A stretch of 64,000 bases of DNA from an uncultured Lachnospiraceae bacterium (GTDB taxonomy: Bacteria > Bacillota > Clostridia > Lachnospirales > Lachnospiraceae). The position numbers and the translations under genes were made by a program. The notes under the pieces are model-generated. The model saw nothing but the letters and a program-made list of their open reading frames with translations, did no database searches and had not been told where the DNA came from. The number at the start of each line of letters is the position of its first letter. Within the stretch, counting starts at the first letter, position 1. Location: contig CAMNFR010000005.1 of NCBI GenBank assembly GCA_946537305.1, positions 1 to 64,000 of the forward strand, given 5' to 3'. This document shows, in pieces, positions 2,301 through 30,832 of this stretch.

Positions 2301-3794
2301 TTAGTCGTTCAGTATCTTTTCCATATGATGATCGATGGCCTCCTCCAGGGCCTCGATGATGATCTCCAGGGTGCGGATGCGGGCGTATTTTTTATCATTG
2401 GATTCAATGATAAACCAGGGTGCATTCTTTGTGCTGGTCTTTTCCAGCATTTCATCGATGGCTTCCTCGTACTGAGGCCATTTTTCGCGGTTGCGCCAGT
2501 CCTCATCCGTGATCTTCCACTGTTTTTCCGGTGTGTTCTGCCGGTCGGTAAAGCGGGCCAGCTGGGTATCTGAATCAATATGGATCCAGAATTTTAATAC
2601 TACAGCGCCCCAGTCGGTCAGCTGCCGTTCAAATTCGTTGATCTCGTTATAGGCGCGCTTCCAGTCCTTTTCGGTGCAGAACCCTTCCAGCCGCTCCACC
2701 ATGACACGCCCGTACCAGGTGCGGTCGAAAATGCATACATGGCCGCTCTTCGGAAGTCTTGTCCAGAACCGCCACAGGTACTGACGGTTCAGTTCATGCG
2801 GCTCAGGCGAAGCAATGGGCATCACATCAAAGCCGCGGGGATCCAGCGGATAGGTGACGCGGCGGATGTTGCCGCCCTTACCGGCAGCGTCCCAGCCTTC
2901 ATAGCAGAGCACGACCGGAATCTTCCGGCGGTAGATAATATTGTGCAGCTCTGCCAGACGCTTCTGCAGCTTCTTCAGTTTTTCCTTGTACTCCTCTTCC
3001 TCCAGCGCGGGGCTCAGATCTACCTCCGAAAGCTTCGGCATGGGGATCAGCGGGAAGTCCTCCTCGAACGGGTCGCCGTTATATTTCCCTTTTTCAAGGG
3101 CCTTTTCGATCTTACCGGTCAGAAGAGCCAGGGAGTCACGCACGGCTTTGCGGCGCTTGCTTCCGTCGATCTTATGCCATTTCACGGTGTCCCCGGTGGC
3201 ATCCATAAAGTTCTCATAGGCCTCCCGGAACCGTTTGTATTCCCGGTGCTGCCAGCGGTCTTCCTCTGTGACACGCCACTCTGTATTGGCCTTATCCTGC
3301 AGATTGGCCAGTCTCTCGAATTGCTCCTCCTTTGAAATATCCAAAAAGATCTTCAGAATAATATAACCGGCGTCCCGCAGCTGCCGCTCAAATTCATTCA
3401 CGGAGCGCACACGTGTTTTATATTCTTTCTTGGTGATCTCATGGCGCACATACTTGCGCACGACATCCTCCATCCAGCCAGAATCATAGAACATGATCTT
3501 CCCGTTTTCCGGAATCTTTTCTGCATAGGGATACAGGAACGGGTACCGGCATTCATTCTCCCGCTGAATGACCGGGGAAGTCACATTATAAAAACGGGGA
3601 TCGATCTCACTGATCAGCTCATTGATCAGACTTCCCTTGCCGGCAGCGGCCCAGCCCTCTATCAGCACGATTACTGGAAGTTTTGCCTCCCGCAGGAGCT
3701 GCTGCTGACCCTTCAGCTTTTCCAGAAGGGCTTTAACCTCCTGTTTCATTTGTTCTTTTTTGCTGATTTTTTCCTCTTTGATTTCCTCTGACAT
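2301..3794 (-). CDS. Two-domain PPK2-family polyphosphate:nucleotide phosphotransferase
   Basis: PPK2-family enzymes phosphorylate AMP, ADP or GDP using polyphosphate. At 497 aa this protein has two fused PPK2 domains. The first has the P-loop IEGWAAAGKGSLINEL near residue 50, and the second has YEGWDAAGKGGNIRRV near residue 300. The usual lid/Walker B signature FDRxWY is intact only in the second half (IFDRTWYGRVMVERLEGF). The first half has YDSGWMEDVV, so the N-terminal domain is probably structural, as known for class II polyphosphate:AMP phosphotransferases. AGGAGG lies 5 nt before the ATG. It is first in an operon with ppk1, behind a consensus promoter. The pairing implies polyphosphate made by PPK1 can be drawn on for ADP/ATP. 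AMP preference is inferred from the two-domain layout. Confidence 0.9.
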   Translation of the reverse strand: MSEEIKEEKISKKEQMKQEVKALLEKLKGQQQLLREAKLPVIVLIEGWAAAGKGSLINELISEIDPRFYNVTSPVIQRENECRYPFLYPYAEKIPENGKIMFYDSGWMEDVVRKYVRHEITKKEYKTRVRSVNEFERQLRDAGYIILKIFLDISKEEQFERLANLQDKANTEWRVTEEDRWQHREYKRFREAYENFMDATGDTVKWHKIDGSKRRKAVRDSLALLTGKIEKALEKGKYNGDPFEEDFPLIPMPKLSEVDLSPALEEEEYKEKLKKLQKRLAELHNIIYRRKIPVVLCYEGWDAAGKGGNIRRVTYPLDPRGFDVMPIASPEPHELNRQYLWRFWTRLPKSGHVCIFDRTWYGRVMVERLEGFCTEKDWKRAYNEINEFERQLTDWGAVVLKFWIHIDSDTQLARFTDRQNTPEKQWKITDEDWRNREKWPQYEEAIDEMLEKTSTKNAPWFIIESNDKKYARIRTLEIIIEALEEAIDHHMEKILND

Positions 3795-3877
3795 GGCTTC
3801 CTCCTGTTCATAATAATTCTGAGTAACTATTTACCGATTTTTGAAATACGAAAGGGCAATTTTGTCATATATAGTTT

Positions 3878-3906
3878 ATTATACGAAATCAAAACAGATA
3901 ATACAA
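3878..3906 (-). promoter_or_regulatory. Sigma-A-type promoter of the ppk2-ppk1 operon
   Basis: On the minus strand TTGTAT and TATAAT are separated by exactly 17 nt, about 85 nt upstream of the ppk2 ATG. The surroundings are AT-rich compared with the rest of the window. It lies just beyond the terminator of the preceding TPM-domain gene, so the polyphosphate operon starts fresh here. Confidence 0.75.
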
Positions 3907-3933
3907 GAAAAAATAGCAAAAATATACGATAAA

Positions 3934-3969
3934 GGCTGCTGTGCCGGAATCTTTTCCGGCACAGCAGCC
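3934..3969 (-). terminator. Rho-independent terminator after the TPM-domain gene
   Basis: A near-perfect hairpin, GGCTGCTGTGCCGGAA paired with TTCCGGCACAGCAGCC, is followed on the minus strand by TTTATCGTATATTTTTGC. It sits 45 nt past the end of the TPM-domain gene. It is the first strong terminator I see after more than 21 kb of tightly packed minus-strand genes. Confidence 0.8.
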
Positions 3970-7478: not shown

Positions 7479-8742
7479 CTATGGCCTTTCCGATATCGGA
7501 GCGGCAGAACATGCCCTCCCAGGAGATTTCCTTCGCAGCCTTATAGGCATTCGCCCGGGCTTCCTTCAGGGTATCTCCCAGCGCCGTCACGCCCAGTACG
7601 CGGCCGCCGTTGGTAAGAAACTTTCCTTCCGGCGACAACTTTGTACCAGCATGGAAGACAAAGTAACCGTCTTTTCCTTCCAGCTTCTCCAGGCCGTGGA
7701 TCTCAAAACCCTTCTGATAGGACACGGGATAGCCGCCGGAAGCCAGCACCACACACACGCAGGCGTTATCTGCAAATGTCAGTTCGATCTGATCCAGCGT
7801 ACCGTCCACACAGGCCTCCATGACCTCTACAATATCATTCTCCATGCGAGGAAGCACGACCTGTGCTTCCGGATCGCCGAAGCGGGCATTATATTCCAGC
7901 ACGCGAGGGCCTTTTTCCGTCAGGATCAGCCCGAAGAAGATGATGCCTTTGAATTCTCTGCCTTCCGCGCGCATGGCGTCCACCGACGCCTGGAAAACAT
8001 ATTTCCGGCAGAACTCCTCCACCTCCGCCGTGTAGAAGGGGCTGGGGGAGAAGGTGCCCATACCGCCGGTATTCAGTCCCTGATCTCCATCGAGAGCACG
8101 CTTGTGGTCCTGTGCGGAGGTCATGGTGCGGATGGTCTTTCCATCCACAAAGGAAAGAACGGAGACCTCCCGACCGGTCAGGAATTCCTCCACGACCATG
8201 CGGTTGCCGGCTGAGCCGAACTTCTTGTCCATCATGATCTCCCGGACGCCGTCCATGGCCTCTTCTTTTGTCTGGCAAATCAGTACGCCTTTGCCAAGCG
8301 CCAGACCGTCCGCCTTCAGAACGATGGGATAATCGGAATGCTCCAGATATTCCATGGCGGCCTGCGGATCATCGAAGGTCTCATAGGCTGCCGTGGGAAT
8401 ATTATATTTCTTCATCAGATCTTTAGAGAACGCCTTGGACCCCTCCAGAATGGCTGCATTCTTCCTGGGTCCGAACACACGCAGGCCGGCCGCCTCAAAA
8501 ACGTCCACAATACCGCCGACCAGCGGATCATCCATACCGATGACCGTCAGATCGATCTCTTTTTCCTTCGCAAAGGCAGCCAGCGCATCAAATTCCATGG
8601 CGCCGATCGGCACGCATTCCGCGATCTGCCCGATTCCGGCATTTCCCGGTGCGCAGTAAATTTTATCCACCTTCGGGCTCTGTGCGATCTTCCACGCCAG
8701 AGCATGCTCTCTTCCGCCGCTTCCTACGATTAAAATCTTCAT
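7468..8742 (-). CDS. purD: Phosphoribosylamine-glycine ligase
   Basis: PurD (GAR synthetase) joins glycine to phosphoribosylamine with ATP, the second step of IMP synthesis. 424 aa, the family length. The N-terminal fold starts MKILIVGSGGREHALAWKIA. The ATP-grasp core includes YPIVLKADGLALGKGVLI and VVEEFLTGREVSVLSFVDG. The metal-binding end is RVLEYNARFGDPEAQVVL. It is last of a purK-purE-purM-purN-purD run, 15 nt after purN. Fully intact. Confidence 0.97.
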   Translation of the reverse strand: MKILIVGSGGREHALAWKIAQSPKVDKIYCAPGNAGIGQIAECVPIGAMEFDALAAFAKEKEIDLTVIGMDDPLVGGIVDVFEAAGLRVFGPRKNAAILEGSKAFSKDLMKKYNIPTAAYETFDDPQAAMEYLEHSDYPIVLKADGLALGKGVLICQTKEEAMDGVREIMMDKKFGSAGNRMVVEEFLTGREVSVLSFVDGKTIRTMTSAQDHKRALDGDQGLNTGGMGTFSPSPFYTAEVEEFCRKYVFQASVDAMRAEGREFKGIIFFGLILTEKGPRVLEYNARFGDPEAQVVLPRMENDIVEVMEACVDGTLDQIELTFADNACVCVVLASGGYPVSYQKGFEIHGLEKLEGKDGYFVFHAGTKLSPEGKFLTNGGRVLGVTALGDTLKEARANAYKAAKEISWEGMFCRSDIGKAIDEA

Positions 8743-25708: not shown

Positions 25709-25737
25709 AGTATAGCAGAGGTACGCCTATTATGCAA
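25709..25737 (-). promoter_or_regulatory. Sigma-A-type promoter of the asp23-nusB operon
   Basis: TTGCAT and TATACT are separated by 17 nt on the minus strand, about 35 nt upstream of the asp23 ATG. It is the last clear promoter I see before the 21 kb of tightly packed minus-strand genes. Confidence 0.75.
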
Positions 25738-25764
25738 GCTTTTACGCAACATGCAGTAGGCGGT

Positions 25765-26703
25765 TTACGCAAAGCTGACTACCTGTGTGACCGGCTGAGC
25801 AGGCTCCAGTTTTTCCGCATAGAGCACCGGGCCTTCTTCCCCATACTGTTTTACAAATTCCTTCCGGATGCGGGCCGTAATGGTGACCCAGGTCTTGTCC
25901 GCCCATTTATATGCTTCCGGAAAATGGCACAGATATCCCAGAAAGACCATGTCTGCCTCGCAGCAGGTCATGGCCATACGGCCGGGCACAAAGCTGTCCT
26001 TCGGCAGTGTCTTCTGCTTGTGGATCATGGCCGTAAAACGGACCGTCTTGCCGTCATAGCGATCCGGATTCTCAGAGGCATCCAGGAACCAGATGCCGTA
26101 ATCCTGATTGGTGACCTCTATGACCGGAGCGTTCAGATCGTAGGGGAGATCCTCCTCAATAAAGGCATCCAGCTCGCCCTGATCGTCCTCAAACACCACA
26201 TCACAGGAAGGGTTGACCGCCCGGAATATACGCTTGATCCGGGGAAGATCCATATCTGCGGAACTGCGGTTGACAATAATGACCTCAGAGCCGCGGGCGT
26301 TATTCCCGAAAACGGATTTCATATTGGCAAAATAGGTCTCGAACGTGGAACCGTCCACCATCATCAGCTGCTGGTGAAGGAACCATCCCTGCGGCAGGAT
26401 CAGATCTCTGGGATCCCACATGCCATTATATTCAATGATCACACGCTCCGCTCCATGCTTCTGGCGCAGCGCCTCCATGTGCGCAGGCGTCAGATCAGAC
26501 TGATCTTCGATGATCTCCGGGAAGGTACGATTCCATGCCAGCATATCCGGATCGTATTCCTCTTCCCCCTCCTCGCAGATCAGGAGCAGCGTATTCCCCT
26601 CGATGGAAAAATAGTCTTCCGTAATGGTACCGGACAGAAAGCTTGTCTTGCCGCTGTCCAGAAAACCGGTGATCAAAAATACCGGTATCTCAGGCTGTTT
26701 CAT
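25765..26703 (-). CDS. CobW-like GTPase fused to a DUF1980/TIGR03943-like domain
   Basis: 312 aa. The N-terminal P-loop domain has VFLITGFLDSGKTSFLSGTI and HGAERVIIEYNGMWDPRDLI, as in CobW/COG0523 proteins, but lacks the CxCC metal-binding motif of its neighbour. A switch-like region VIIVNRSSADMDLPRIKRIF follows. The last 100 residues (DGKTVRFTAMIHKQKTLP, then PGRMAMTCCEADMVFLGYLC) resemble the C-terminal half of TIGR03943/DUF1980 proteins, which normally accompany an integral-membrane permease of the YcgR type. No such permease is nearby. Follows the His-rich GTPase by 7 nt, so both are in one transcript. A role in metal handling is inferred from the neighbour and the fold; substrate is unknown. 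Confidence 0.7.
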   Translation of the reverse strand: MKQPEIPVFLITGFLDSGKTSFLSGTITEDYFSIEGNTLLLICEEGEEEYDPDMLAWNRTFPEIIEDQSDLTPAHMEALRQKHGAERVIIEYNGMWDPRDLILPQGWFLHQQLMMVDGSTFETYFANMKSVFGNNARGSEVIIVNRSSADMDLPRIKRIFRAVNPSCDVVFEDDQGELDAFIEEDLPYDLNAPVIEVTNQDYGIWFLDASENPDRYDGKTVRFTAMIHKQKTLPKDSFVPGRMAMTCCEADMVFLGYLCHFPEAYKWADKTWVTITARIRKEFVKQYGEEGPVLYAEKLEPAQPVTQVVSFA

Positions 26704-26709
26704 AATCTG

Positions 26710-27882
26710 TTACCTTCCTGCAAAGAGCTCTTTAATCTTATCTGTATGAATATCCGCGCCGATCACGCACACCTTACCGGTGACATCCGGCGATCCCTCG
26801 CGGACCTCTGTCTCACCGGGGACCATATCAAAATACAGCCATCCGCTGCCGTCGGCGCCGGCCACCATGCCCTTCGCACGCAGTACCGCGCCATAGGTTT
26901 CCGCATCGTCCAGTGCGGCCAGGATCTCTTCCAGCTCCGAGGTGCGGAATTTCCGGGACGTCTCACAGCCCCAGCTGGTAAACACATCATCCGCGTGGTG
27001 ATGCCCATGGTGATGATGGTGATGATGCTCGTGCTCATCCTCATCGTCGTCGTGGTGATGATGATGTTCATGTTCATGCTCATCCTCATCGTCGTCGTCA
27101 TGATGGTGATGATGATGTTCATGTTCATGCTCATCCTCATCGTCGTTGTCATGATGGTGATGATGATGCTCATGTTCATGCTCATCCTCATCGTGATGAT
27201 GGTGATGGTGATGCTCGTGCTCGTGCTCTTCCTGCTCACGGCGCACGGCTTCGATCAGTTCCTGCATCATGGCATCCTCTACCTTGCCGGCAGCTTCCAT
27301 GGTCTCCAGGATCTGTTTACCGGTGATCTCGCTCCAGTCGGTGGTGATAATGGTCGCCTTGTCATTCAGCGTACGGATCAGTTCCGTAGCCTCTGCGACC
27401 TTGGCTTCCGAGGCCATGCCTGTGCGGCTTAACACCACTGTGCCGGCCGTCTCGATCTGGTTGCTGAAGAATTCGCCGAAATTCTTCATATACACTTTGC
27501 ATTTCTTAACATCAACAACTACGATTGCTGTATTCAGTTCCACATCACAGCCCTGGGTGGCGTTCTGTACAGCCACCATAACATCAGAAAGCTTGCCCAC
27601 GCCGGAGGGCTCGATGATGATGCGGTCAGGCTGATAGGTTGACAGTACTTCCTTCAGTGCTGTTTCGAAATCACCCACCAGTGTACAGCAGATGCAGCCG
27701 GAATTCATTTCGCGGATCTCAATACCGGCCTCCTTCAGGAAACCGCCGTCAATGCCGATCTCACCGAATTCGTTCTCGATCAGTACGACCTGCTCCCCGG
27801 CCATTGCCTCTTTCAGTAGCTTCTGGATCAGCGTTGTCTTGCCGGCGCCAAGGAAACCGGAAATGATATCAACTTTTGTCAT
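26710..27882 (-). CDS. COG0523 G3E-family GTPase, metallochaperone type, very His-rich
   Basis: 390 aa. Walker A is ISGFLGAGKTTLIQKLLKEA at the N-terminus. The metal-binding CxCC motif is in EMNSGCICCTLVGDFETALK near residue 65, followed by RIIIEPSGVGKLSDVMVAV. The guanine-specificity region (TVVLSRTGMASEAKVAEATE) has no clear NKxD. A His/Asp/Glu stretch of about 75 residues with roughly forty His lies between the GTPase and the C-terminal domain; the C-terminal domain (LRAKGMVAGADGSGWLYFDM) is complete. Such proteins deliver or store Zn, Co or Ni. The promoter with a palindromic operator candidate upstream suggests metal-responsive control. Zinc is the likeliest metal, but that is inference. 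Confidence 0.88.
   Translation of the reverse strand: MTKVDIISGFLGAGKTTLIQKLLKEAMAGEQVVLIENEFGEIGIDGGFLKEAGIEIREMNSGCICCTLVGDFETALKEVLSTYQPDRIIIEPSGVGKLSDVMVAVQNATQGCDVELNTAIVVVDVKKCKVYMKNFGEFFSNQIETAGTVVLSRTGMASEAKVAEATELIRTLNDKATIITTDWSEITGKQILETMEAAGKVEDAMMQELIEAVRREQEEHEHEHHHHHHHDEDEHEHEHHHHHHDNDDEDEHEHEHHHHHHDDDDEDEHEHEHHHHHDDDEDEHEHHHHHHHGHHHADDVFTSWGCETSRKFRTSELEEILAALDDAETYGAVLRAKGMVAGADGSGWLYFDMVPGETEVREGSPDVTGKVCVIGADIHTDKIKELFAGR
27001..27233 (-). repeat. In-frame tandem repeat encoding the His-rich segment
   Basis: The minus-strand codons for EDEHEHEHHHHHHDDDD-like units recur with periods of 45, 51 and 51 bp (CATCCTCATC on the plus strand recurs at 27036, 27081, 27132 and 27183). 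Copies differ at a few synonymous or D/N positions. All periods are multiples of three, so repeat-number changes would alter the His content without a frameshift. Confidence 0.85.
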
Positions 27883-28024: not shown

Positions 28025-29935
28025 CTATCCCAACGGAATCTCTACAACCTCCGCCATGCTTGTGAGACACTTCTCGATCTGCGTGGAGATCTCTTCCACC
28101 ATGCGCTCCGTCAATGCCGCATTCTTTTCCTCTTCAGAATTATAATAGAAATTCTGACGGATGGCGGCGGCCAGCGTATCCTTACGATTCTCAATGGAGT
28201 GCTTCGGCGCCAGCTTACGCATGGGAATCGGAAGATCCGCTTTCAGGAATGCCGCCTCCATGGGACCTTTGCCAAGAAGCAGCAACAGGAAGGAAGCCAT
28301 GGCACCGGCCAGAATGCCCGCCGGTCCGCTGGAAAGAATCGCAATGCCGCTTCCACCACACAATAGTCCAATAATCACTGATACCAATGAATCGAACAGC
28401 CAAGTCAATTCGTCCACACCGAACACGTTTTTAGCATCGATATGGATATCGATCTCTGAAGCCTTCAGATAAGATGTCAGACTAAGTGCCGTATACGGAA
28501 TATGATGCTTTGCACAGATCGGCATGGTGTGTTCTTCCAGATCGCCAGCTACCGGCTTCAGCCATTCCGCCACCGGTCGGCGCAGCCTCTCCCTGGCTTC
28601 ATCCGAGCGGAGAAACTCTTCAATGCCACGCTGCAGCTCTGCATCGGTATCTGCGAGTCTTCGGATTTCCCCGTTTCGCCATCTGGCAAAAACTGAGGCC
28701 GCCACCTGGTCGATGATCGGATCGACCAGCGTATCGATCACAGAACGGTACAGATCAAAAATATGCTTCTGAACGATCTCTTCCACGATATGGGAGGAAT
28801 TCAGCTGCTGAAGTTCCTCGCGAAAATCCCGGAGATCATCATCGATCCTACCGCACCAGGCAAGCCCACGCGAAACAGCAAATTCCGGTTCTTTTCCGCG
28901 GATCACGATGGCATCCGGAAATACAGACAGGCACCAGTCCTGGATCACGGAAAGTCGGGAAACGCCGCCGGTCAGGAAAATCAGCTCCGGCTGGCTCTGC
29001 CCGATCTGCGCGCGCACATTCTGCAGACTGTTCACAAAGACCTCCCGGAAGGAGCGTCCCTCCAGTCGGTCCATAGGACCTTCCAGAATATTTTTCGCGA
29101 TCTTTTCGTCCACGGAGACCGTCAGACGAACGGGCGTCTCATAAAGAATGCGGACCGTTTGCCGGCAGCCGTTCTCTCTCCAATAGTCTTCATCCGAAAA
29201 ATAGGTTTCCTTGCATTTTCTGGCGGCAAATTCGCAGTAGGTGCGCCAGGCATCGCTTTTTGTGAAGATCTCCTTTATCTGAGAAGCCTGTCCGGAAGCC
29301 TTTACCGCCTCTTCCAGGATCATCTCATCCATCAGCCCGCCGCCAAGCGCCACCTCACCGGCCGTTCGCATTTCCACCTCCCGGCCACCCATGATATAGG
29401 CAAAGTCGGTCGTGGAAGATCCGATATCGACGACCAGGACCGGCCGGGACAGGATATCATATCCAACCTGCAGATGCCTGGACTGACAAGCCGAGACCAT
29501 GGCCGCCCGCGATTCTGATATGATGCGAAGCGGCGGGAAAGAGGCATCTTCAAATATCCGCCGATAATCCTCTCTGGCCTGTGCGTTCCAGCCAGCCGGG
29601 CATCCGATATAAAAGCAGCCGTCATTTTCCGGATCAATGGCTCCGCTTGTATACAGTTCAGTCAGTACACCGGAGGCAAAGCGACGGATGTCCATCCTGC
29701 TGTCACGGTCCGTAAGGAACCGTGTCTTAAAGCGTAGCCCGCGCTTCACGGCACCGGGCAGATAACAGGCCGCCTCACCGATCCTCTGGGTACCGTCAGG
29801 CATCAGGGCATAGGCAGATATAAAACTTTCCGCTCCGGCTACCGGCAGCATTTCCGGAAGTGCCGGATCATCTTTTTTCAGGTGAGAGACCGCGCTTTCG
29901 GCGTCTCCCAGATCAAAGCCGTAAAAATGTTCCAT
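28025..29935 (-). CDS. Membrane-anchored Hsp70/actin-fold ATPase of unknown function
   Basis: 636 aa. The actin/Hsp70 ATPase landmarks are present but altered. Phosphate-1 is FYGFDLGDAESAVS at the N-terminus (DLGDAES instead of DLGTTNS). Connect-1 is IISESRAAMVSACQS near residue 145. Phosphate-2 is VLVVDIGSSTTDFAYI near residue 170. The adenosine loop is LIFLTGGVSRLSVIQD near residue 320. There is no recognisable Hsp70 beta-sandwich substrate domain. Instead a mostly helical region precedes a hydrophobic hairpin near residues 520-555 (DSLVSVIIGLLCGGSGIAIL, then GILAGAMASFLLLLLGKG) and an amphipathic helical tail. It follows a two-helix membrane protein and a radical SAM activase in one operon. 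ATP-dependent conformational action at the membrane is inferred; the client is unknown. Confidence 0.8.
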   Translation of the reverse strand: MEHFYGFDLGDAESAVSHLKKDDPALPEMLPVAGAESFISAYALMPDGTQRIGEAACYLPGAVKRGLRFKTRFLTDRDSRMDIRRFASGVLTELYTSGAIDPENDGCFYIGCPAGWNAQAREDYRRIFEDASFPPLRIISESRAAMVSACQSRHLQVGYDILSRPVLVVDIGSSTTDFAYIMGGREVEMRTAGEVALGGGLMDEMILEEAVKASGQASQIKEIFTKSDAWRTYCEFAARKCKETYFSDEDYWRENGCRQTVRILYETPVRLTVSVDEKIAKNILEGPMDRLEGRSFREVFVNSLQNVRAQIGQSQPELIFLTGGVSRLSVIQDWCLSVFPDAIVIRGKEPEFAVSRGLAWCGRIDDDLRDFREELQQLNSSHIVEEIVQKHIFDLYRSVIDTLVDPIIDQVAASVFARWRNGEIRRLADTDAELQRGIEEFLRSDEARERLRRPVAEWLKPVAGDLEEHTMPICAKHHIPYTALSLTSYLKASEIDIHIDAKNVFGVDELTWLFDSLVSVIIGLLCGGSGIAILSSGPAGILAGAMASFLLLLLGKGPMEAAFLKADLPIPMRKLAPKHSIENRKDTLAAAIRQNFYYNSEEEKNAALTERMVEEISTQIEKCLTSMAEVVEIPLG

Positions 29936-29938
29936 AGA

Positions 29939-30832
29939 TCAATCCTCCGCCTCTGCCGCAAGGCCGCGGGCCAAAAGCGTGCCTTCATAGACCAGTGCCG
30001 GGCGAATCGTACTGCTCTCACGCGAAGGCAGCACATCAAACCAATCCCTGTTCTTTCCGTTATAAGAAACCTCCTGAATGCCGCGCCGGTGCAGATAATA
30101 CGGAACCTGTGCTGCCTGTTCCAGGCAGTAGGCGCCGTCTCCGCTCTTTCCAGCCTCCAGCAGCTGTCCGAGAAGCGTCCAGAGGTAACTGTCCTCACGG
30201 GCTATGGACTCCTCCGAGCGTTCTGTCAGCAGCTGTTGCTGTCCCCGCAGGATCTGTTCCAGTTCCTGGTCGATCCCCTGAATTGCGGCGGCATAGATGC
30301 GCCAGATCCTGTTAACATCCGGTACTGTTTCTACCTGCTGTTTCACGGATGGGACCGGATGACGAACCGAACGTCCCGACGCGTAAAAGCATAGGCTGCT
30401 AACGATGAGAAAACCGGCCGTCCAGGGAATAGCCTTTACGGGAAAGGTTTTTCCGAATGTCAGGAAAAGAAACATTGCCGCGGCTGCCAAACCTGCAATG
30501 CCCAGGAACAGCAGCACATGATGTTTTGCGGACATCTGCGGCTTTTCCGCTTCTTTCCCGCCGTTTTCCTTTCGCTCCCAGATGCGGGTCTCTCCCACGG
30601 TATCTGTCAGCCAGACGGCAGACTGCAATGCACGCATCATCCCAGCGGCAGCCTGTCGGCAATATGGATCGTCACATGTCTCGTTGTACTTCACCAGAAG
30701 CCGGCTGCACTCTTCCGACAGCACAGAAACAATCTTTTCTGCCGAGCCGGCGGCTTCCATTGCATGCAGAATAGATTCCCTGTCCTTTTCCAGCAGCGAA
30801 AGCATGCTGACTTGTGTTCTTCCTTCACTCAT
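29939..30832 (-). CDS. Two-helix membrane protein of unknown function, partner of the Hsp70-like ATPase
   Basis: 297 aa. Residues 1-100 are helical and acidic, with a Cys pair in YNETCDDPYCRQAAA. Two adjacent membrane segments follow (VLLFLGIAGLAAAAMFLFLTF near 110, and AIPWTAGFLIVSSLCFYASG near 135). A soluble C-terminal helical region (RIYAAAIQGIDQELEQILRG) carries a strongly conserved-looking end, RESSTIRPALVYEGTLLARG. I do not recognise the family. It overlaps the nrdG-like stop as ATGA and ends 3 nt before the Hsp70-like gene, so the three proteins are made together. Both this protein and the ATPase have paired membrane helices, which suggests a membrane complex with cytoplasmic domains; a co-chaperone or nucleotide-exchange role is a guess. 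Confidence 0.7.
   Translation of the reverse strand: MSEGRTQVSMLSLLEKDRESILHAMEAAGSAEKIVSVLSEECSRLLVKYNETCDDPYCRQAAAGMMRALQSAVWLTDTVGETRIWERKENGGKEAEKPQMSAKHHVLLFLGIAGLAAAAMFLFLTFGKTFPVKAIPWTAGFLIVSSLCFYASGRSVRHPVPSVKQQVETVPDVNRIWRIYAAAIQGIDQELEQILRGQQQLLTERSEESIAREDSYLWTLLGQLLEAGKSGDGAYCLEQAAQVPYYLHRRGIQEVSYNGKNRDWFDVLPSRESSTIRPALVYEGTLLARGLAAEAED

Follow-up and report, generated by a model that had tools for sequence, protein, structure and literature searches.

The window, a stretch of 64,000 nucleotides, carries on its reverse strand a pair of genes for two GTPases. The upstream gene encodes a COG0523 protein (GTPase1), and the downstream gene a protein in which a second GTPase domain (GTPase2) is fused to a DUF1980_C domain (Table 1). 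A previous sequence-only reading had placed the fusion gene 7 nt behind a His-rich COG0523 gene; the pairing stands, and the gap is 6 nt (26704-26709). Upstream of the pair, positions 28025-30832 (reverse strand) appear to encode a 636-aa Hsp70/actin-like protein and, after it, one of 297 aa that has hydrophobic segments. Antisense to the pair runs a 566-aa open frame of Met/Val/Leu repeats (25732-27432, forward strand), which mirrors the repeated His codons of GTPase1 and is very likely no real gene.

Table 1. Features of the two-GTPase locus in the window
Feature	Position	Strand	Evidence
COG0523 GTPase1 partner, 390 aa, complete, with CobW_C	26710..27882	-	PF02492 (2.9e-40) and PF07683 (1.2e-7)
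CICC metal-binding motif of GTPase1, residues 63-66	27685..27696	-	sequence
His/Asp/Glu-rich repeat linker of GTPase1, approximate limits	27001..27231	-	24 His within 40 residues
GTPase2-DUF1980_C fusion protein, 312 aa, soluble	25765..26703	-	start ATG; open reading frame and profile matches; 60 confirmed relatives
GTPase2 domain, residues 1-180, G3E/COG0523-like P-loop, without CxCC	26164..26703	-	PF02492, AF2 model, tree
Walker A GFLDSGKT, residues 13-20	26644..26667	-	G13, G18 and K19 invariant
ExNG signature EYNG, residues 91-94, where COG0523 partners have EPSG	26422..26433	-	motif counts
DUF1980_C domain, residues 185-305, predicted OB-fold	25789..26151	-	PF21537, AF2 and Foldseek
CCxxD motif CCEAD, residues 247-251, candidate metal site	25951..25965	-	conservation across fusions and relatives

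In Pfam, the cobW family (PF02492) matched residues 7-167 of the fusion protein with an E value of 2.5e-6, above the gathering cut-off. Together with the Walker A motif, this bears out the earlier assignment of a P-loop GTPase domain without CxCC. The NKxD-like base-recognition motif of the window copy is imperfect (NRSS). A profile check likewise confirmed that the C-terminus resembles DUF1980/TIGR03943 proteins, with a significant match to DUF1980_C (PF21537; E 2.6e-23, 82.7 bits against a cut-off of 25.9). Of the two profiles that had been proposed for this check, PF09323, the membrane N-terminal part of DUF1980, had no Pfam match in the window fusion, and TIGR03943 from NCBIfam reached 83.7 bits (E 1.2e-23), slightly below its equivalog cut-off of 88.8 bits. 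When 30 fusions were searched with TIGR03943, an E value of 3e-25 was reached by only one. Pfam gave no match to CobW_C (PF07683) in the window fusion, though its partner has one. No transmembrane segment was found in the window fusion, where the highest Kyte-Doolittle mean over 19 residues was 1.14, nor in any of the 61 fusions compared. The protein is neither a COG0523 member, as it lacks CxCC and CobW_C, nor a TIGR03943 permease subunit, as it lacks the membrane part and the permease.

A survey with PF21537 covered 391 genomes of the same class and yielded matches in 126 of them. We fetched the 60 loci where the match fell in a frame of about 300-355 aa, and all 60, from 56 Clostridia genomes, encode the same fusion. 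A scan of GTDB contigs returned at least 590 relatives, mostly Lachnospiraceae among the 80 listed, and outside the class the fusion was present in two further genomes of a phylum sample (G707 and G740). Because the architecture recurs in the confirmed relatives and in the scan matches, chance or artefact is excluded as its source. As far as sequence goes, the fusion is an established and widespread Bacillota family and no local accident.

The two kinds of GTPase domain are separated by their motifs. CxCC is present in 71 of 71 GTPase1 domains versus none of 79 GTPase2 domains (0/61 in fusions, 0/18 in permease-linked or solo GTPase2). EPSG occurs in 68 of the 71 COG0523 domains and in none of the 79 GTPase2 domains, 78 of which carry ExNG. 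Residues G13, G18 and K19 of Walker A are invariant in the 61-sequence fusion alignment and also in alignments A1 and A2. Because Walker A is intact everywhere and ExNG is conserved, GTPase2 represents a distinct, conserved type and no decayed copy. In the DUF1980_C half, C247 and C248 are invariant in 61 of 61 fusions and D251 is kept in 98%; CCxxD was also carried by every one of 22 membrane DUF1980 proteins and by all three DUF1980_C proteins of znu operons. The AF2 model of the whole fusion (pLDDT 88.2) matched HypB (2hf8, 1.5e-6) and YjiA (4ixm, 2.4e-6) in the PDB, as well as UreG, and a sequence search of solved structures gave YjiA matches only, all weak. The separate model of DUF1980_C (pLDDT 92.9, pTM 0.86) was matched by Foldseek to OB-folds, namely a CST subunit (8d0b_C), SSB, RPA and Asp/AsnRS, and the domain is accordingly a predicted OB-fold whose CC(xxD) is invariant.

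The only conserved neighbour of the fusion is the COG0523 gene, found on the same strand in 56 of the 61 fusion loci (window included). It lies directly upstream in 51 loci, with gaps of -62 to +114 nt, and 371-720 nt upstream in three; the order is reversed in two. The remaining loci are either cut by a contig end inside the COG0523 gene (2/61) or solo (3/61). The adjacency suggested by the sequence-only reading was thereby upheld, and widespread solitary occurrence was not seen in this survey. CICC is present in 56 of 56 partners and the His-rich linker in 54 of 56 (16-26 His per 40 residues). The median count is 22 His per 40 residues in fusion partners versus 3 in permease-operon partners, a contrast that would largely be one historical change if the fusion arose once, so that its p-value should not be over-read. 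Clustering of the neighbours showed no cluster besides COG0523 in more than 9 of the 61 loci, and Fur-family, znu and ArsP_1 permease genes were present in none of the 61. The usual permease is therefore absent, as had been proposed, and a family search for PF03773 found none in the window's own genome, which is 82.9% complete. Upstream of the 56 COG0523 partner genes, the best scores for a Zur box (B. subtilis consensus) were like those of shuffled sequence, and a simple search for palindromes ahead of the fusion and the permease operons found nothing in common.

Solo paralogous fusions without a COG0523 neighbour were located at 6868-7803 of L068, 6960-7895 of L085 and 6662-7597 of L087. Two further paralogous fusions (L060 and L061) stand beside a different COG0523 protein, of the YjiA-like NDxG type and without the His-rich linker. 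Together these five are a second fusion subgroup, possibly with another client.

In other Bacillota, GTPase2 also occurs in operons for ArsP_1 permeases, often located behind fur and znuABC. At L192, the gene preceding the membrane DUF1980 protein encodes a cobW domain (residues 7-166) fused to ArsP_1 (227-519), and the same architecture was found at L200, L204, L208 and L213 (for example, 5219-6829 of L200 and 5844-7376 of L208). The order COG0523, GTPase2-ArsP_1 permease, DUF1980 protein with three transmembrane segments recurs at L200-L202, L204, L205, L207-L213 and L220-L222. GTPase2, permease and DUF1980 are three separate genes at L218 and L219, the unfused architecture of GTPase2 being confirmed in L218, while at L214-L217 and L223 the permease and DUF1980 genes are present and the GTPases are missing, as in ScfAB/YcgRQ. 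Among the 24 permease-type loci (L200-L223), 11 contain a Fur-family gene and 6 have an ABC-3 ZnuB-type permease nearby. Inside znuABC operons (L194, L195 and L199), DUF1980_C was also found on proteins whose N-terminus is a signal or anchor.

The membrane DUF1980 proteins examined have three hydrophobic segments. In the two inspected by eye (L200 and L208), basic residues follow the second segment, which by the positive-inside rule would put DUF1980_C outside the cell. In the soluble fusion it has to be cytosolic, which would mean a change of side. A set of short DUF1980_C proteins with one transmembrane segment (L180-L191, for example 6135-6683 of L181) comes from genome families mostly without ArsP_1. 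These short forms lack CCxxD (0/12) as well as a neighbouring permease gene, and they group in a clade of their own in the tree; they may represent a second, metal-independent use of DUF1980_C.

Judged by its domains, the fusion is the first and the last member of the row GTPase2, permease, transmembrane part and DUF1980_C, in the same order and with both membrane parts absent, and it looks like the membrane operon minus its membrane parts. The sequence-only reading had proposed that the fusion replaces a separate TIGR03943 protein. DUF1980_C is indeed carried on a GTPase, but the GTPase half of the fusion also belongs to the permease operon. Since relatives have GTPase2 fused to ArsP_1, or solo between the COG0523 and permease genes, replacement is an incomplete account: the DUF1980 half is encoded by the next gene in these relatives, and the fusion is thus missing their entire membrane portion.

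Phylogenetic trees of the two halves support this descent. The GTPase tree places the fusion GTPases in one clade (87/98) among permease-linked GTPase2 domains. In the DUF1980_C tree the fusions again form one clade (94/94), and the nearest membrane relatives in both trees are L208-L211 and L192/L193. The agreement of both halves supports one fusion event. In AU tests, a single clade of all permease-linked GTPase2 domains was not rejected (p 0.09), and one of all membrane DUF1980_C domains was borderline (p 0.045). The nesting of the fusion among membrane forms weakly suggests a direction from membrane to soluble.

Several systems resemble parts of this architecture. ScfAB, SMU.746-SMU.747 and B. 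subtilis YcgR-YcgQ, each an ArsP_1 permease with a TIGR03943-DUF1980 protein, have been described as a membrane complex, putatively a permease, whose function is unknown, ScfA being a membrane protein with 8 transmembrane domains (PMC5584981). They share with the window protein a DUF1980_C with CCxxD, a motif that we verified in the membrane DUF1980 proteins of this analysis, and the wider Bacillota operon has the same kind of permease. In contrast, the window protein has no permease or transmembrane part and its DUF1980_C is joined to a GTPase, whereas the part of PMC5584981 drawn on here reports no GTPase partner for ScfAB. The COG0523 zinc metallochaperones (YciC/ZagA, ZigA, YjiA) have in common with the fusion the Walker A motif and, according to the model and its matches to YjiA and HypB, the G3E fold, and its partner is a full COG0523 member. 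The fusion differs from them in lacking CxCC and EPSG, in having DUF1980_C instead of CobW_C, and in belonging to a separate deep clade. The GTPase2-ArsP_1 proteins found here resemble it in having the same GTPase2, the same kind of upstream COG0523 partner and DUF1980 in the operon. However, they are membrane-bound, their DUF1980_C sits on a separate protein with three transmembrane segments and is predicted to face outward, and their COG0523 partner is mostly without the long His-rich linker. The DUF1980_C proteins of znuABC operons have the same Pfam domain and CCxxD, but are exported, lack a GTPase and are part of a ZnuABC importer operon. Our literature search, with most subscription journals and preprints outside it, found no description of the GTPase2-ArsP_1 permease or of the soluble fusion.

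We propose that the window pair is a soluble offshoot of a zinc system, a two-GTPase module handling zinc in which DUF1980_C, through CCxxD, would serve as metal or client head; we hold this to be somewhat likelier to be right than wrong. Zinc handling we infer from the operon context of the relatives and from published Zur binding. The Zur protein of B. anthracis binds DNA upstream of both an ArsP_1 permease operon and COG0523 genes (PMC6336718). That TIGR03943 proteins and their permease are under metal control, as the sequence-only reading stated, is thereby sustained for the permease version; for B. subtilis ycgRQ it is not, since these genes have been described as controlled by ECF sigma factors (PMC5584981). 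Because the fusion loci have no Fur-family or znu genes and no enriched Zur-box-like site, zinc would be assigned to the fusion by descent and from its partner.

In the membrane form, the OB-fold of DUF1980_C would capture Zn(II) with CCxxD outside the cell, the permease would hand it inward, and at the inner face GTPase2 together with GTPase1 would receive it onto CxCC in a GTP-gated step. The soluble form may perform the same handover within the cytosol. There, DUF1980_C would be the metal- or client-binding head of GTPase2 and would bind or sense zinc through CCxxD. G3E GTPases commonly dimerise, and GTPase2 might pair with GTPase1 as a heterodimer and exchange zinc with this His-rich partner, whose linker could act as a zinc reservoir replacing the transport channel. 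The pair would then allocate scarce zinc to putative client proteins, with import left to a separate znuABC. The GTP-driven metal delivery already suggested by the sequence-only reading would be a presumptive part of the proposal.

Another metal is an unlikely alternative: the pair could handle cobalt, nickel, iron or manganese, or could metallate one dedicated enzyme. There are other COG0523 proteins whose clients are Co or Fe ones (PMC2770081), no zinc gene stands beside any fusion locus, and the Fur-znu genes of the window's own genome lie on another contig. Yet the membrane relatives accompany znuABC and Fur-family genes, and DUF1980_C is present as an extra protein in znu operons. Nor does any client enzyme recur beside the fusion, with neighbour clusters other than COG0523 confined to at most 9 of the 61 loci.

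Less probable still is that the protein carries no metal, the OB-fold binding another ligand, such as nucleic acid or a cell-wall precursor, and the GTPase pair acting as a stress switch. The best matches of the DUF1980_C models are nucleic-acid-binding OB-folds, and in S. mutans and group A Streptococcus the permease with DUF1980 has been tied to acid stress, biofilm and infection fitness, and not to metal (PMC5584981). OB-fold matches, however, indicate a fold and tell little of the ligand. A metal is favoured by the CC pair that is invariant within CCxxD, by a partner that has CxCC and is rich in His, and by the znu and Fur-family genes around the relatives.

In one version of the sequence-only reading, the fusion would take the place of a separate TIGR03943 subunit and cooperate with a permease whose gene lies at another site of the genome. 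Some PF03773 permease was indeed found in 15 of 56 fusion genomes. This reading is nevertheless improbable, as 41 of the 56, like the window's own genome at its stated completeness, have no PF03773, no fusion locus has one, and three fusion genomes (G243, G249 and G168) also contain a complete membrane operon including its own DUF1980. For comparison, PF03773 was present in 16 of 16 permease-type genomes tested. Adjacency and common fold might suggest that the GTPase half arose by a recent duplication of the COG0523 gene next to it and has since decayed. This has next to no chance of being correct, given the 100/100 split between COG0523 and GTPase2 in the GTPase tree, the rejection of a joint clade of fusions and their own partners (AU p 3e-52) and the conserved Walker A and ExNG.

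Beyond the zinc-handling module favoured for the window pair, we tentatively suggest, with more doubt than confidence, an undescribed Bacillota class of GTPase-coupled zinc transporter, composed of a COG0523 protein, a CxCC-less G3E GTPase fused to ArsP_1 and an extracellular CCxxD OB-fold. The window protein would be its soluble offshoot, a transporter turned into a chaperone of two GTPases that allocates zinc and has a His-rich store, with the capture domain moved to the cytosol. If true, this would amount to a metal permease into which G3E GTPases are built. It would also clearly exemplify the loss of membrane parts from a transport operon, with the soluble domains from outside and inside joined to each other. 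Through the GTPase forms, the permease and DUF1980 pair so far lacking a function (ScfAB, SMU.746-747, YcgRQ) is connected with zinc chaperones of the COG0523 family, with regulators of the Fur family and with ZnuABC, so that a function in zinc can be put directly to the test. Since gut Lachnospiraceae commonly have the soluble form, this form is relevant to how abundant gut bacteria allocate zinc.

Other loci of the window's own genome add some observations. Its separate fur-znuA-znuC-znuB locus on contig 6 (4108-8207 of L230, forward strand) consists of a Fur-family gene, ZnuA, an ABC ATPase and an ABC-3 permease, followed by a lipoprotein (7545-8207) in the place of the DUF1980_C protein of L199. 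This lipoprotein has a CC motif positioned like that of DUF1980_C and is probably a diverged relative; Pfam did not recognise it, and its profile similarity in hhalign was weak (E 0.0015, probability 17%). On contig C46, two adjacent HypB-like GTPases (3293-3961 and 3989-4747 of L231, reverse strand) were considered as a second pair and rejected, as they look like HypB paralogues; they are probably nickel or hydrogenase maturation GTPases. Contig C17 encodes an unusual COG0523 fusion, a 511-aa protein with cobW, CobW_C and histidine-phosphatase domains (894-2429 of L004).
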